NCBI GenBank assembly: GCA_015065785.1
Contig: SVPR01000017.1
Coordinates: 1 to 48,853, forward strand
Direction of reading: 5' to 3'
Length of the DNA stretch: 48,853 bases
Source: Oscillospiraceae bacterium
GTDB taxonomy: Bacteria; Bacillota; Clostridia; Oscillospirales; Acutalibacteraceae
Shown: in pieces, positions 5,282 through 44,880 of the stretch
Layout: each line of letters begins with the position of its first letter
Numbering within the stretch: position 1 is the first letter of the stretch
Position numbers and translations under genes: made by a program
Notes under the pieces: model-generated
Told to the model about the DNA's origin: nothing
The model's input: the letters and a program-made list of their open reading frames with translations, nothing else
Databases searched by the model: none

Positions 5282-6538
5282 ATGAGTTTTTTTGAATTCA
5301 GTGAAAAGACAACCGAGCTTTCAAAAAAGGCTCTCGAAATGGCAAAAGAACAATTCAGTGAAATTAACGAGATAACAGAATTTAACCAACAAAGAGTGTT
5401 AAAAGCATTTATAAATCACGGAGTTTGCGAATCTCACTTTGTGTCAAGCACAGGTTATGGCTATGGCGACAGGGGGCGTGAGGTTTTAGACGAAGTAACT
5501 GCCGAAATTTTCGGTGCAGAGGATGCTTTAATTAGACACAGCTTTGCAAGTGGTACTCATACTTTAGCCGTAATGCTTTTTGGCGTTTTAAGACCCGGTG
5601 ACAAGGTGCTTTCAGTAACAGGCGTGCCTTATGATACTATTCATTCGGTTATAGGTCTTTCGGGTGAGGGAATGGGCTCATTAAAAGACTTCGGAATCAG
5701 CTTTGAAATATTAGATTTATTACCTGACGGTACAGTAGATTTTGACGGCTTACAGGATAAATTAAATAAAGAAAATTATAAAGCAGTTTATATTCAACGC
5801 TCCCGTGGTTATTCTTTAAGACCAACACTCACTTCAAGCGAAATTAAGAAAATTGTAGATATAACAAAAGCTAATAGTAAAGCAATTACAGTGCTTGATA
5901 ACTGCTACGGTGAATTTACAGAAAAAGTAATGCCCGGCGAAATCGGTGTTGATGTTTTCGCAGGCTCTTTAATCAAAAATCCGGGTGGCGGTATCGCAAA
6001 AAGTGGTGGCTACATAGCGGGTAGAAAAGATTTGATTGAGCTTTGCTCTTACAGAATGACTACACCGGGAATCGGTCGTGAGGTTGGTGCTACTCTCGGT
6101 AATACCCGTGATATTTTTATGGGGCTTTTCTCTGCACCTCATGTAACAGGTGAGGCGCTGAAAACCGCAGTTTTCACTGCCGCATTATTTGAAATAATGG
6201 GCTACGAGGTTTCACCAAGGTTTAACGAAACAAGAGCTGATATTATTCAGAGCATTAAGCTCGAAAAAAGCGAAAAGCTTATTGCATTTTGCCAGGGACT
6301 TCAGAGTGGCTCTGCAATAGATAGCTTTGTTGTACCTGAGCCGTGGGCAATGCCGGGGTACGACAGCGATGTTATTATGGCTGCAGGAGCCTTTACAAAC
6401 GGCTCTTCAATTGAGCTTTCTGCCGATGCACCATTAAGAGAGCCGTATGCTGTATGGCTTCAGGGCGGTCTTAACTTCCACAGTGCAAAAATCGGCGTTA
6501 TGCTGGGAGCAGAAAAAGTGCTGAATGCAGAGTGCTGA
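5282..6538 (+). CDS. Methionine gamma-lyase family (aluminium-resistance YnbB type) PLP enzyme
   Basis: PLP-dependent fold-type I protein of 418 residues in the Cys/Met metabolism branch often annotated as methionine gamma-lyase or aluminium-resistance protein; its true substrate is not settled. Visible are STGYGYGDRGRE, the Ala-Glu-Asp-Ala-Leu-Ile-Arg loop before HSFASGTH, and the presumed PLP lysine in GSLIKNPGGGIAKSGG. The 3' end is odd. The last codons (VLNAEC, then TGA) are written in heptanucleotides GTGCTGA-ATGCAGA-GTGCTGA (6518-6538), which continue into the intergenic repeat. The C-terminus therefore seems to have been supplied or replaced by the repeat. Confidence 0.85.
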   Translation: MSFFEFSEKTTELSKKALEMAKEQFSEINEITEFNQQRVLKAFINHGVCESHFVSSTGYGYGDRGREVLDEVTAEIFGAEDALIRHSFASGTHTLAVMLFGVLRPGDKVLSVTGVPYDTIHSVIGLSGEGMGSLKDFGISFEILDLLPDGTVDFDGLQDKLNKENYKAVYIQRSRGYSLRPTLTSSEIKKIVDITKANSKAITVLDNCYGEFTEKVMPGEIGVDVFAGSLIKNPGGGIAKSGGYIAGRKDLIELCSYRMTTPGIGREVGATLGNTRDIFMGLFSAPHVTGEALKTAVFTAALFEIMGYEVSPRFNETRADIIQSIKLEKSEKLIAFCQGLQSGSAIDSFVVPEPWAMPGYDSDVIMAAGAFTNGSSIELSADAPLREPYAVWLQGGLNFHSAKIGVMLGAEKVLNAEC

Positions 6539-6815
6539 GTGCTGAATTTCGGAAGTCCTGCGGACTTGATTATAATTAGATATTTATAAAGAAAACTACA
6601 TTCTTTCATTTAAAGGTTGTTGTAAACCTCAAATGATAGAATGTAGTTTGTTTTTAAAGAATAAATGAAACGACAAATTAACTGTTACAACAAATTATTA
6701 TAATAGCCGACCGCAGGCCCCGAAATTCAGCACTCAGCACTCAGCATTCTGCATTCTTATAATCGCGTCGCAGACCCGAAATTTTCAATTTTCAATTTTC
6801 AATTCTCAATTTTTC
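6518..6815. repeat. Mosaic intergenic repeat, copy B, between convergent genes
   Basis: Order: GTGCTGA heptads (6518-6545), mini-hairpin AAGTCC-TGC-GGACTT (6553-6567), core hairpin (6593-6611 with 6631-6649, one mismatch; inner stem AGGTT/AACCT), mini-hairpin with GCA loop (6709-6719), CACTCAG/CATTCTG heptads (about 6728-6757), mini-hairpin GTC-GCA-GAC (6767-6775), TTTTCAA heptads (about 6781-6811). It covers the whole gap and overlaps the 3' ends of both convergent genes. Confidence 0.88.
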
Positions 6816-10172: not shown

Positions 10173-11090
10173 ATGGAATGGCAAGAAATTAAAATTTCAG
10201 TTAATTCAGAAGATACCGAAAGAGCAAATAATATAGCAGTAATGGCAGTGCCTTACGGAATTTATACAGAAGATTACAGCACTCTTGAAGAAGAGGCTTG
10301 GGATATTGCTCATATTGATTTAATCGACGAGGAGCTTTTAAAAAAGGACAGAACTAAGTCAATTATTCATATTTATATCGGCGAAAATGATAGCCCAAAA
10401 GAAGCGATTTCTTTTGTATCATCAAGATTAGATGCAGAAAAAATTCCTTACGAAATAGATACTTCTGCTTGTAAGGAAGAAGACTGGCTTAATAACTGGA
10501 AAAAGTATTTTAAACCACTAAAAATCGGTCAAAGACTTTTTGTAAGACCTGTCTGGGAAGAAAATTTTGACGCAGAAAACAGAGTGATTTTAAATATTGA
10601 GCCGGGTGCTGCATTTGGTACCGGTGCTCACGACACAACCCGCCTTTGCCTTGAAACTCTTGACAAAATTATTAAAGATGGCGACACAGTTTTAGATATG
10701 GGTTGCGGTAGTGGTATTCTTGCAATTTCTTCACTTTTATTAGGTGCAAAAAGTGCCTTTGGAGTAGATATTGACCCACTTGCAGTTAAAACTGCAAAAG
10801 AAAATGGCTTAATGAATAATTTCAAAGAGCCTGAGCTCACATTCGTATGTGGCGACCTTGACGAAAATGTAAAGGGCAAATATTCAGTAGTTGTAGCAAA
10901 TATCGTGGCAGATGTAATTATGATGTTTGCACCTAATGTCAGAAAATATATGGCACCTGACGGAGTTTTCATTGCTTCGGGTATTATAGACACACGAGCA
11001 GATGAAGTTATTTCTTGCTTAGAGCAGAATGGATTTACAATAGTTGAACGCTATGAGCAGGGTGGGTGGAATTGTCTTGTGATGAAATAA
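10173..11090 (+). CDS. prmA: Ribosomal protein L11 methyltransferase
   Basis: SAM-dependent methylation of ribosomal protein L11. An N-terminal substrate domain (about residues 1-125) precedes a class I methyltransferase domain with SAM loop LDMGCGSGILAI, DIDPLAV and the post-I motif VVANIVADV. At 305 residues it is a normal length. It ends in CLVMK; the final coding bases 11073-11084 form one arm of a 12-bp palindrome whose loop holds the TAA stop and whose other arm (11091-11102) begins the GCGATAT hairpin array. Confidence 0.95.
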   Translation: MEWQEIKISVNSEDTERANNIAVMAVPYGIYTEDYSTLEEEAWDIAHIDLIDEELLKKDRTKSIIHIYIGENDSPKEAISFVSSRLDAEKIPYEIDTSACKEEDWLNNWKKYFKPLKIGQRLFVRPVWEENFDAENRVILNIEPGAAFGTGAHDTTRLCLETLDKIIKDGDTVLDMGCGSGILAISSLLLGAKSAFGVDIDPLAVKTAKENGLMNNFKEPELTFVCGDLDENVKGKYSVVVANIVADVIMMFAPNVRKYMAPDGVFIASGIIDTRADEVISCLEQNGFTIVERYEQGGWNCLVMK

Positions 11091-11282
11091 CATCACAAGA
11101 CAGCGATATAAATTCTTGCGAATTTGCGATATGTCTTCGACGCGATATACTTCGTGCGATATGTTTGCTTACGCAAACGATTTTAGTCGAGGATTTATAT
11201 CATATCGCATACGAGCAAAGCGAGTATATATCGCAATTGCATTTGTGCAATTATATCGCGTTTGCTTTGGCAAACATATCGC
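11073..11282. repeat. GCGATAT hairpin array 1, fused to the prmA stop codon
   Basis: In prmA sense: 12-bp palindrome 11073-11084/11091-11102 around the stop, then small palindromes AAATTC-TTGC-GAATTT, GTC-TTC-GAC, AC-TTC-GT and GTTTGC-TTAC-GCAAAC, separated by GCGATAT. A centre follows (GGATTTATATCAT from 11191), then ATAC..GTAT, AATTGC-ATTTGT-GCAATT and GTTTGC-TTTG-GCAAAC, separated by ATATCGC. The delimiter is GCGATAT left of the centre and its complement ATATCGC to the right, so the whole could fold as one branched structure. There is no T run and no reading frame I trust. Confidence 0.9.
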
Positions 11283-13094: not shown

Positions 13095-13103
13095 CTAATA
13101 TCT

Positions 13104-13132
13104 GTTTCCTGCTTTCTGTTTCCTGTTTCCTG
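13104..13132. repeat. TTTCCTG heptad tract
   Basis: Imperfect tandem repeats of TTTCCTG without the core hairpin. The complementary unit CAGGAAA is repeated five times at 44524-44563 in copy E. It immediately precedes the left arm of the dacF inverted repeat. Confidence 0.7.
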
Positions 13133-23967: not shown

Positions 23968-24180
23968 AAATGCTGAATGCTATTTTGAATTGAAAATTGA
24001 AAATGGAAAATTGAAAATTGTGGGACCTGCGGTCGGCAATTATAATAGTTATCCATAAAAAAATTCTATCATTTTTAGTTTACGAAAAACTTTAAATGAT
24101 AGAACTTTTTATTTTTAGTAAATATATAATAGCCAACGCAGTTCCGAAATTTTTAATTTTTAATTCTTAATTTTTTGTTT
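23968..24180. repeat. Mosaic intergenic repeat, copy C
   Basis: ATTGAAA heptads, mini-hairpin GACC-TGC-GGTC (24024-24034), core hairpin 24064-24104 (11-bp outer stem, inner AGTTT/AAACT), mini-hairpin AAC-GCA-GTT (24135-24143), then AT heptads. 23980-24059 is an 80/80 inverted match to 61-140. Confidence 0.88.
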
Positions 24181-24369: not shown

Positions 24370-24565
24370 TGAATAATGAAGTCGCATACGCTGATGAATG
24401 ATGAATAATGAATAATTGTGGGGCTACGCCGTAATTATAATTGAAAATTGAAAATTGAAAATTAAAAATTTCGGAAATCCTGCGGACTTGATTGTAATTA
24501 TTAGTCAATAAAAACAACAAGTTCTATCATTTTTAGTTTACGAAAAATGATAGAACTTTGTTGCT
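24370..24565. repeat. Mosaic intergenic repeat, copy D
   Basis: GAATAAT heptads (about 24394-24415), mini-hairpin GGC-TAC-GCC (24422-24430), ATTGAAA heptads, mini-hairpin AAATCC-TGC-GGACTT (24475-24489, one mismatch), then a core hairpin of about 20 bp (24513-24534 with 24543-24563, one bulge) that has lost the inner AGTTT/AAACT stem. Confidence 0.85.
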
Positions 24566-24583
24566 TTTTATAGTTTTAATATA

Positions 24584-24788
24584 GCGATATGTTTGCTTAC
24601 GCAAACGCGATATAACTGCATAAACGCAGTTGCGATATATACTCGCTTTGCTCGTATGCGATATGATATAAATCCATGAATTGTGCCGAAGGTATATCGC
24701 ATCGAAGATATATAGCATTTCTTTAGAAATATATCGCAAATCTGCAAGGATTTATATCGCTGATGAAAACGCTGTTGCGTTTTCATCA
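24584..24788. repeat. GCGATAT hairpin array 2, fused to the lepA stop codon
   Basis: Reading plus: GCGATAT-delimited palindromes GTTTGC-TTAC-GCAAAC, AACTGC-ATAAAC-GCAGTT and ATAC..GTAT; a centre GATATAAATCC; then ATATCGC-delimited ATC-GAA-GAT, ATTTCTTTAGAAAT and AAATCT-GCAA-GGATTT; finally a perfect 12-bp hairpin TGATGAAAACGC (24761-24772 with 24777-24788). Its last three bases are the lepA stop codon on minus. 24632-24675 is identical, inverted, to 11191-11234 in array 1. Confidence 0.9.
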
Positions 24789-26600
24789 ATCCTCATCAAG
24801 CTTAAGAATCGCCATAAACGCTTCTTGTGGCACTTCAACAGTACCGAATGAGCGCATTCTCTTTTTACCTTCTTTTTGCTTTTCAAGAAGCTTTTTCTTT
24901 CTTGTAATGTCACCGCCGTAGCATTTTGCAAGAACATCTTTACGCATAGCCTTAACAGTTTCTCTTGCAATGACCTTGCCACCAATAGCAATCTGAATCG
25001 GAATTTCAAACATCTGTCTTGGAATGTTGTCCTTAAGTTTTTCAGCAATCTTTCTTGCTCTGCCATAAGCCTTGTCAGAGTGTACCATAAATGAAAGCGC
25101 ATCAACTATGTTACCATTAAGAAGAACATCAAGCTTTACAAGATTTGATTTTCTGTATTCAGAAATTTCATAGTCAAGTGAAGCGTAACCACGGGTTCTT
25201 GATTTTAATGCATCAAAGAAATCGTAAATTATTTCGTTAAGCGGTAAATCATATTTTAATTCAACTCTGTCTGCAGAGATGTAATCCATATTTTTAAATG
25301 TACCGCGTCTTTCCTGACATAAATCCATAATTGCACCAACATATTCAGGTGGTGAAAAGATATGTGCATCTGCAACAGGCTCTTCTGAAAAATCAATTGT
25401 TGCAGGGTCAGGGTAGTGGGTGGGGTTGTCAATTTCTATAACCTCACCATTTGTTAAGTGAATCTTATAAACAACGCTTGGAACTGTTGTAACAAGGTCT
25501 AAATTGTATTCTCTTTCAAGTCTTTCCTGAATAATTTCAAGGTGTAAAAGACCTAAGAAGCCACATCTGAAGCCAAAGCCTAAGGCACCTGATGTTTCAG
25601 GCTCGTAAGAAAGTGCCGCGTCATTAAGCTGTAATTTTTCGAGTGCCTCGTGAAGATTTTCATAGTCAGCACCGTCTGCAGGGTAAATACCGCAGTAAAC
25701 CATTGGTGTAGCCTGTCTGTAGCCGGGTAATGCTTCACTTGCAGGGTTACTTGCGAGTGTAACAGTATCACCCACACGGGCATCACTTACAGTCTTGATT
25801 GAAGCAGTAATATAACCAACCTCACCAGCACAAAGCTTTTCTCTTGGCTCAAGAGAGGTCGCTCTCATATAACCTGTTTCAACAACAGTGAATTCTGCAC
25901 CAGTTGCCATCATTCTCATTGTGTCACCGGGCTTTATAGTACCGTCAACTATTCTTGTGTAAACAATAACGCCCTTGTAGTTATCGTAAATTGAGTCAAA
26001 TATTAACGCTCTTAAAGGTGCTTCGTCGTCACCCTGAGGGGCAGGAATATCTTTTACTATTCTCTCTAAAACCTGCTCTACATTCTGACCAGTTTTTGCA
26101 GAAACTCTTGGCGCGTCTTCACAAGGGAGGCCAATAATATCCTCAACCTCTAAGCTTACTCTTTCAGGGTCAGCAGAGGGGAGGTCAATTTTATTTATAA
26201 CAGGTACTAATTCAAGGTTGTGGTCGAGGGCTAAATATGTATTGCCCAGAGTCTGTGCCTCAATACCCTGACTTGCGTCTATTATGAGAATTGCACCCTC
26301 ACACGCTGCAAGTGAACGAGAAACCTCGTAGTTGAAGTCAACATGACCGGGAGTGTCAATTAAGTTAAGCTGATAAACCTTGCCGTCGTTTGCTTTGTAG
26401 TCAAGCTTTACAGCGTGAGCCTTAATTGTAATTCCTCTTTCTCTTTCTAAGTCCATATCGTCAAGTAATTGAGCGGACATATCTCTCTTTGCAACAGACT
26501 GTGTAAGCTCTAAAAGTCTGTCAGCGAGTGTAGATTTGCCGTGGTCAATATGGGCAATAATTGAAAAATTTCTTATGTTTTCTTTTGTTACAAGGGACAT
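24786..26600 (-). CDS. lepA: Elongation factor 4 (LepA) translational GTPase
   Basis: Ribosome-bound GTPase related to EF-G, proposed to back-translocate or remodel stalled ribosomes. G motifs [17 protein letters not shown] and [12 protein letters not shown]-like domains II, III and V; C-terminal LepA-specific domain ([23 protein letters not shown]). 604 residues. Last gene of the obgE-mrnC-yitT-lepA unit; AAAGGAAC precedes the ATG. Its TGA stop is the first codon of the terminal hairpin of array 2. Confidence 0.97.
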
Positions 26601-44505: not shown

Positions 44506-44523
44506 GTTGTCGGCTGTCAGAAA

Positions 44524-44880
44524 TCAGGAAACAGGAAACAGGAAACAGGAAACAGGAAACAGGTTTTTCTAAATGCTGAGTGCTGAATGCTGAGTGCTGA
44601 ATTGTGGGTCTGCGACGCTATTATAATTGAATATCAATAAAGATGAAATTATCCTATCATTCATAGTTGATGTTAAAACCAACTTTAAATGATAGGATAA
44701 ACTATTTTTTATTAATTAATAATTATAATCAAGTCCGCAGGACTTCCGAAACTCAGCACTCAGCACTTTAAAAAGGCGTAGCCCCGAAATTTTCAATTTT
44801 CAACTTTCAATTTTCAATTATAATTGCTAACGCAGTTCCGAAATTCTGCATTCTGCACTCTGCCTTCTGCATTTACTTGC
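44524..44880. repeat. Mosaic intergenic repeat, copy E
   Basis: CAGGAAA heptads (five), GTGCTGA heptads, mini-hairpin GTC-TGC-GAC (44608-44616), core hairpin (13 bp, 44649-44661 with 44688-44700; inner AGTTG/CAACT), mini-hairpin AAGTCC-GCA-GGACTT (44731-44745), CAGCACT heptads, mini-hairpin GGC-GTA-GCC (44775-44783), TTTTCAA heptads, mini-hairpin AAC-GCA-GTT (44829-44837), TTCTGCA heptads. It is the most complete copy. Confidence 0.88.

Follow-up and report, generated by a model that had tools for sequence, protein, structure and literature searches.

A dispersed hairpin-array element of Clostridia with a putatively Gut-1-related half and a linked four-helix-bundle gene

Introduction

REP, BIME and other dispersed palindromic elements are short, occur in many copies and often lie at the 3′ ends of genes. 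REP/RAYT and IS200/IS605 derivatives have a Y1 transposase that is linked to the repeat or serves it. Group IIC introns are found in sense orientation and insert beside stem-loops. Tandem heptanucleotide repeats (TAACTGA), known as STRR, occur in cyanobacteria and Beggiatoaceae, and Elhai is reported to have worked on small repeats in cyanobacterial heptamer arrays. A study of the TAACTGA heptamer weighs, in the part used here, a repeat-binding protein as a possible mobile part (PMC4679880). A 2010 paper includes Gut-1 as a candidate noncoding RNA from environmental sequences only and gives it as “Human gut only”; the portion of that paper available to us mentions neither a linked protein gene nor mobility (PMC2864571). 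Its model (RF01706, 77 nt) consists of hairpins divided by a constant GUGAAAU. The intervening sequence (IVS) in the 23S rRNA of Coxiella carries tandem heptamers just before its S23p ORF, according to the section consulted (PMC4990558). Proteins of family PF05635 are reported, in the available part of a further paper, to resemble Avd of diversity-generating retroelements (PMC10053308), and published work describes the four-helix bundle (4HB) as a pentamer related to this retroelement accessory protein. The accessible portions of the IVS, TAACTGA and Avd papers do not describe the arrays presented below (PMC4990558, PMC4679880, PMC10053308).

The element that we found behind two genes of an Oscillospiraceae bacterium shares features with each of these systems. 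Like REP/BIME, it is short, multi-copy, palindromic and located at gene 3′ ends, and it is set apart from them, by description, through a plan of four plus four separators and a linked 4HB gene. Like the 23S rRNA IVS, it is a small selfish insert that may carry a PF05635 ORF, and the heptamers of the Coxiella IVS recur here beside many array-free 4HB genes. However, an IVS sits in 23S rRNA, from whose transcript RNase III excises it, whereas our arrays follow the protein genes prmA and lepA in a window without any rRNA match, and in contrast to an IVS the element is a hairpin array with constant separators of which gene-less copies are common. With the cyanobacterial and Beggiatoaceae repeats it has the 7-nt unit in common, and PF05635 genes have heptamers beside them both here and in the phylum to which a Scytonema genome belongs; those repeats are plain tandem heptamers, whereas the present 7-mers have hairpins between them and change to the inverted form past a centre. 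Finally, the linked protein is related to Avd, but no reverse transcriptase was seen with the arrays. Its position does not make the element an IVS, nor does its gene content make it a retroelement.

Two copies of one element behind prmA and lepA

The window, by which we mean the whole stretch of 48,853 nt that was analysed, contains two arrays that are copies of one ∼180-bp element. Read on its L-to-R strand, the element consists of a hairpin (hp0), three repeats of GCGATAT plus hairpin, a fourth GCGATAT, a centre holding a hairpin and GGATTTATATC, and then ATATCGC followed by three repeats of hairpin plus ATATCGC. The features are:

10173-11090, plus strand: prmA (PF06325, E 4e-85), array 1 downstream
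11073-11282, plus strand: array 1, whole, behind prmA
11073-11102, plus strand: hp0 of array 1, 12-bp stem, adjoins the first GCGATAT
11103-11162, plus strand: L half of array 1, four GCGATAT at 11103, 11126, 11142 and 11156
11110-11125, 11133-11141 and 11149-11155, plus strand: L hairpins of array 1
11163-11201, plus strand: centre of array 1, hairpin 11163-11178, spacer, GGATTTATATC at 11191-11201
11202-11282, plus strand: R half of array 1, four ATATCGC at 11202, 11228, 11253 and 11276
11209-11227 (two adjacent G-A pairs), 11235-11252 and 11260-11275, plus strand: R hairpins of array 1
24786-26600, minus strand: lepA (PF06421, E 6e-50), array 2 downstream
24584-24788, minus strand: array 2, whole, behind lepA
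24761-24788, minus strand: hp0 of array 2, 12-bp stem, lepA stop codon starts the 5′ arm
24694-24760, minus strand: L half of array 2, three hairpins, separators at 24754, 24731, 24710 (decayed) and 24694
24665-24693, minus strand: centre of array 2, hairpin remnant 24685-24693, GGATTTATATC at 24665-24675
24584-24664, minus strand: R half of array 2, separators at 24658, 24632, 24607 and 24584
24639-24657, 24614-24631 and 24591-24606, minus strand: R hairpins of array 2

The initial annotation had described two hairpin arrays with GCGATAT to the left and ATATCGC to the right of a centre, oriented alike relative to their upstream genes, and both the arrays, whose separators could be located, and their common orientation behind prmA and lepA are as it claimed. 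In plus-strand reading, array 2 has GCGATAT at 24584, 24607, 24632 and 24658 and ATATCGC at 24694, 24731 and 24754; counting the decayed separator at 24710 (ATATAGC), it follows the 4+4 plan too. The 44-nt inverted identity reported between 11191-11234 and 24632-24675 is exact. We also saw the compensated stem change from AATTGC/GCAATT to AACTGC/GCAGTT, and the stem GTTTGC/GCAAAC that is kept while its loop differs (TTTG versus GTAA). A 24-nt unit of array 1 (11156-11179) recurs exactly at 24584-24607, in the opposite half of array 2. At array 1, the loop of hp0 contains the prmA stop codon and the 5′ arm is prmA coding sequence, and GGATTTATATC of the centre is complementary, with one G-U pair, to GATATAAATTC at the 5′ end of the L half. 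The window has 21 occurrences of GCGATAT, compared with an average of 3.3 and never more than 10 in 100 dinucleotide shuffles, and the RNA folding z-scores of the two arrays are –6.5 and –5.9.

The L half resembles Gut-1 RNA

A search of the whole window with Rfam at threshold gave no match. Gut-1 nevertheless gives a 68-bit match at locus L216 (1253-1327), in the L half of a sister array, and ten Gut-1 matches fall in seven of the twelve sister loci. Among the 18 loci with GCGATAT arrays, five have a Gut-1 match at E ≤ 0.01, and one of these, L189, reaches the gathering score; it is the ortholog of array 2 in genome G001 (51.9 bits). In the window, the L halves of array 1 (11101-11167; 31.8 bits, E 2.4e-4) and array 2 (24689-24762; 28.0 bits, E 1.4e-3) score below the threshold of 50, both E values coming from a small search. 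Based on the sister-array, L189 and sub-threshold window matches, we class the L half, on sequence grounds, as a divergent relative of Gut-1 RNA. We had considered, from the Rfam null result, that the arrays belong to no family, and rejected this reading since the L half proved Gut-1-like on L216 and other loci; the earlier statement that no known named family fits is not supported, for the same reason.

Both Gut-1 and the L half of the window arrays comprise three hairpins and a constant 7-mer, which is of the GUGAAAU type there and GCGATAT here, but the Gut-1 model has neither an R half nor a centre, and the window element has both. The match supports an RNA reading and lowers the distance of the element from known kinds. 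New here, beyond Gut-1, are the R half, the several separator types, the dispersal and the linked gene. As a separate observation, Gut-1 matches the L halves of 4HB-linked arrays at L216, L266, L271, L226, L276, L212, L259 and L265.

Stem pairing, covariation and predicted folds

We gathered 49 distinct LR arrays by their centre motif, a procedure that excludes half copies; 29 of them show the exact 4+4 plan. The 212 distinct segments between separators are Watson-Crick paired end to end in 91% (L) and 83% (R) of cases, compared with 28% and 27% after shuffling. In an alignment of 32 of 41 R halves, both sides change in 12 of the 13 tested pairs, a count which, like the others given here, overstates independence because many arrays are orthologous or recent copies. 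Covariation is 0.767, versus 0.247 in shuffled and at most 0.140 in slid alignments, and two-sided change affects 118 cells versus 34 shuffled and at most 27 slid. The number of R-half pair types shows no excess (27 versus 26.0 shuffled), 12 of 500 shuffles likewise attain 12 two-sided pairs, and in the full-array alignment (23 of 29 arrays) pair types and two-sided pair count are likewise unexceptional. The initial annotation had named stems that do not covary beyond chance as evidence against its proposal; the stems do covary, and the strong compensatory change agrees with its suggestion of selection on base pairing.

In the full-array alignment, 97.6% of the cells pair, and RNAalifold pairs the L separators with the R separators, four with four, in a nested arrangement that leaves several hairpins as side arms. 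Folds of single sequences show three or four nested separator pairs in merely 10 of the 29 arrays, and separators of the GCGATAT family are nearly invariant, so that their L:R pairing within this family is a predicted one. The halves of ten sister families again bear reverse-complement separators; in the ATGAAGT family, and in some members of the ATGATAT family, the two halves have their separators in the opposite order. The arm of the first L hairpin, L1, can pair locally (AAATCC/GGATTT) or with GGATTTATATC of the centre, the latter pairing holding at 132 of 148 positions, a value equalled by none of 2000 permutations. This fit of L1 to both a local partner and the centre suggests two alternative, competing folds.

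Strand, gene position and hp0

On the L-to-R strand, the stems contain 84 G.A mismatches and only 3 of the mirror type T.C, and 18 G.U versus 6 A.C (binomial p ∼1e-21 and 0.02, respectively, on data that are not independent). This strand outfolds its complement in 24 of 29 arrays. The persistence of G.A pairs on one strand argues against mere palindrome correction. Of the two processes offered earlier as the simplest reading, selection on pairing holds up, whereas regeneration of the stems by palindrome correction alone is weakened.

Simple ORF calls gave a 5′ ORF for 48 of the 49 arrays. This gene is in sense orientation in 37 of the 39 arrays that have it within 60 nt, where the distance from stop codon to first separator is –17 to 49 nt; when the limit is set at 400 nt, the figure is 41 of 48. 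Sense orientation and folding of the sense strand together point to a putative transcribed 3′-UTR structure. The structured 3′-UTR RNA proposed in the initial annotation is compatible with these data, in which the strand that folds better is the sense strand of the gene in front.

A perfect stem of at least 5 bp that ends no more than 4 nt from the first separator, corresponding to hp0, is present in 41 of the 48 arrays with enough upstream sequence (of 49), compared with 63 of 2400 shuffles. Between the genome under study (G000) and G001, hp0 at prmA carries three substitutions, and all three are matched on the other arm. In G018 and G002, which lack the array, the end of prmA has the 5′ arm of hp0 and lacks the 3′ arm. 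Of the eight relatives compared at the C17 site, three (G001, G018 and G021) are without the array and with a stop-codon stem of their own. Copies are thus placed directly at the 3′ base of stems that lie at gene ends. Although hp0 is coding sequence at prmA, one stem recurs at several loci of G003/G014, as it does at several loci of G007. Stop-codon stems as a general habit were also considered and rejected: a stem of at least 7 bp over the stop occurs in one of 42 window genes (prmA itself), and in 9 of 732 other genes versus 8 of 840 random positions.

Dispersal of the element and comparison of orthologous sites

The genome under study (2.24 Mb in 37 contigs, 84% complete) contains 36 pattern matches at 10 sites, and spaced separator pairs lie on nine contigs including C8, compared with none in the reversed control. 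Its copies comprise five of LR type (C6, C8 twice, C17 and C24), one R-then-L (C2), one L-only (C15) and three R-only (C9, C10 and C23). At the C2 site (L180; 55163-55375), an R half, 43 bp and an L half follow each other, gene-free and in the reverse of the usual order. Of the 22 genomes of the genus, 16 contain three spaced separators, and pattern matches range from 0 to 54 per genome; array 1 as query found matches in 18 of 40 genomes, its own included. Across the class, the pattern was found in 29 of 391 genomes surveyed (one match in the reversed control), and at least six of these (G416, G185, G161, G055, G052 and G282) are unlike the element, so that the real figure is ∼23 or fewer. A wide contig scan found the strict signature in 17 of 119 stretches among the matches listed, all in Clostridia; the remaining 102 loose-pattern stretches, again among the matches listed, were not used to claim a wider host range. 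The element was not found in a phage search. In IMG/VR, two contigs (L425 and L426) contain the first L unit, one of them three times; with only two such contigs, viral contigs are not a main carrier in that collection. Further copies in the same genome and in relatives, whose absence was named beforehand as speaking against the proposal, are numerous, and the element is a dispersed family in which gene-less copies are common.

At orthologous positions, four array sites differ among genomes of the genus. Behind lepA, the array is present in G000, G001 and G018, partly deleted in G021 and absent from 17 others (G015 is unreadable at this site). The prmA site carries it in G000 and G001 only, among genomes in which the gene end was read. 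The C17 site has the array in G000 and G007 and not in seven others read, and the C24 site has it in G000 and G021 and not in G002, G018, G003 and G013. In G014 (L384, contig C52), a GTGATAT array lies behind the stop of the gene that bears the GCGATAT array at the C24 site in G000 and G021. A clean empty site or target duplication of GCGATAT arrays was not found at the four sites compared, where the comparison sites often hold other repeats that limit the reading of empty sites. The sole duplication seen, of 42 bp, belongs to a heptamer-type relative, L210. Dispersed copies and differing orthologous sites are compatible with the non-autonomous mobile palindromic element that had been suggested as a second possibility.

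As the sole reverse transcriptase model, we searched RVT_1 (PF00078), which is present in 4 of the 22 genus genomes and absent from 18, some of these assemblies being incomplete. It is absent from the high-copy genomes G007, G020 and G008 and also from G000, G001 and G017; the copy-rich G006 has one. Since several high-copy genomes lack RVT_1, a route by reverse transcription is not supported.

A linked four-helix-bundle gene and heptamer-flanked relatives

In ten loci, the array is followed by a 4HB gene of family PF05635 (23S_rRNA_IVP)/TIGR02436 (E 1.5e-22 and 2e-25, respectively), which is missing from the window copies. We know of no catalytic function of the 4HB protein. The gene starts 13-40 nt past the last ATATCGC in nine loci, the ORF of the tenth being truncated, and a further L half with two to four exact separators lies downstream in nine of the ten; the gene-bearing version reads L-R-gene-L. 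TIGR02436 proteins are encoded in 20 of 22 genus genomes, and the genome under study has 11 such occurrences. G014 and G018 contain arrays, and none of their listed 4HB genes is of GCGATAT type, in assemblies that are possibly incomplete. An open-access literature search, not made by the name Gut-1, returned no description that we recognised of such arrays with PF05635.

We built a tree from 102 of 114 4HB ORFs (at least 95 aa; 119 columns), of which 40 have an upstream separator array, 43 have lag-7 arrays and 19 have neither under the rules applied here. Each of the eight multi-row separator groups needs a single change on this tree, and the nine changes for ten separator states are the minimum; the separator labels were set after inspection, and three groups are weakly or not supported. 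The agreement between separators and clades may be mere linkage. Lag-7 tandem arrays occur in 67 of 200 segments beside 4HB genes, versus 2 of 184 segments 550-800 nt away, and other lags from 4 to 12 beside the genes gave 0-3. Most of the 4HB relatives that lack an array have tandem heptamers on their flanks. Within the phylum to which a Scytonema genome belongs, the 4HB family occurs in 15 of 39 genomes, and lag-7 arrays flank 9 of the 23 loci examined; the one Latescibacteria locus is without them.

L200 and L203 are apparently orthologous heptamer elements whose repeats differ (CAGTCGC versus CAGATGC type) on both flanks together, a concerted change. At L210 (G011, contig C57), a heptamer-type 4HB gene lies in an apparent tRNA-Leu anticodon loop with the 42-bp direct duplication on either side. 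In the window, 12 of 24 tandem-repeat rows have period 7:

23988-24175, 6517-6756, 6780-6813, 44520-44873, 13102-13132 and 100-132: period-7 repeats

They are often arranged as inverted pairs, spaced by ∼190-300 bp that include a hairpin (TTCTATCATTT..AAATGATAGAA), and TTTCGGAA or TTCCGAAA adjoins them. To judge by their sequence, these repeats look like gene-less cousins of the heptamer-flanked 4HB elements. A half heptamer element at 24400-24570, with heptamers at 24439-24470, TTTCGGAAATCC and a hairpin at 24519-24558, adjoins array 2, and the region near 23969-24174 has more than ten matching places in the same genome, among the matches listed.

Discussion

We lean, with slightly better than even confidence, towards the window arrays being gene-less copies of a mobile structured-RNA (or single-strand) element that acts through its L-to-R strand and is served by the 4HB protein. 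In the tree that we propose for the folded transcript, the L separators would be paired with the R separators and the hairpins would stick out. The 4HB protein would bind the 7-nt separator of its own family, or the folded unit, and the complex could drive copying of the element to stem-loops at gene 3′ ends, hp0 possibly playing a role in insertion. An inserted copy would be tolerated as an ordinary 3′-UTR structure, and gene-less copies would be served in trans. We hold a fuller version only tentatively and rate it somewhat below an even chance: a mobile element of an undescribed class, encoding neither transposase nor reverse transcriptase and made of an RNA tree of 7-nt separators and interchangeable hairpins, whose L half is Gut-1, and a 4HB protein that reads the separator of its own family, inserting at gene 3′-end stem-loops and akin, through PF05635, to IVSs and heptamer repeats.

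Alternatively, the arrays could be REP/BIME-like palindromes that act at the DNA level, recognised in folded, single-stranded form and mobilised in trans by a transposase not linked to them, with stems kept by template-switch correction and the 4HB gene as a passenger. Gene-less copies are indeed common, no transposase was noticed among the ORFs of five gene-bearing loci, the 24-nt unit 11156-11179 recurs exactly at 24584-24607, and the arms of hp0 at prmA co-change in three of three cases although one of them codes. However, correction would erase the G.A mismatches that persist on one strand (84 versus 3), sense orientation in 37 of 39 arrays and the recurrence of 4HB genes beside arrays of several separator types speak against this explanation, and so does the independent proposal of the related Gut-1 as an RNA; we regard it as unlikely. 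We give a similarly low probability to a chiefly regulatory or stabilising 3′-UTR RNA, protecting ends or terminating transcription, that spreads rarely and has the 4HB protein as an RNA-binding partner that moves nothing. The position of the arrays close behind stop codons in sense, the folding of the sense strand, the hp0 stem of at least 5 bp in 41 of 48 arrays and the conservation of two alternative folds would suit such a role, but the upstream genes differ, the number of pattern matches varies from 0 to 54 per genome in one genus, and the element also occurs as half-arrays and in versions with a gene.

We regard as very improbable a retroelement that is copied in trans by a reverse transcriptase from elsewhere, the 4HB protein acting like Avd in diversity-generating retroelements. 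Sense orientation and insertion beside stem-loops do recall group IIC introns; however, RVT_1 is found in only 4 of 22 genus genomes, and G007, G020, G008, G000, G001 and G017 all lack it. The resemblance of PF05635 to Avd, as given in the available part of the source, is a further point in favour of this explanation (PMC10053308).

The element that we prefer, a structured RNA or single strand served by a 4HB protein, joins two orphans without a function: Gut-1 RNA, listed in 2010, and the PF05635/S23p proteins of ribosomal IVSs. Gut-1 thereby gains a candidate protein partner. With one separator per protein group, binding of each protein to its own RNA becomes testable, and the link between 4HB proteins and heptamers points to a protein that may bind the heptamer repeats of bacteria. 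Should the element prove to move with neither a known transposase nor a known reverse transcriptase, it would do so by a new mechanism.
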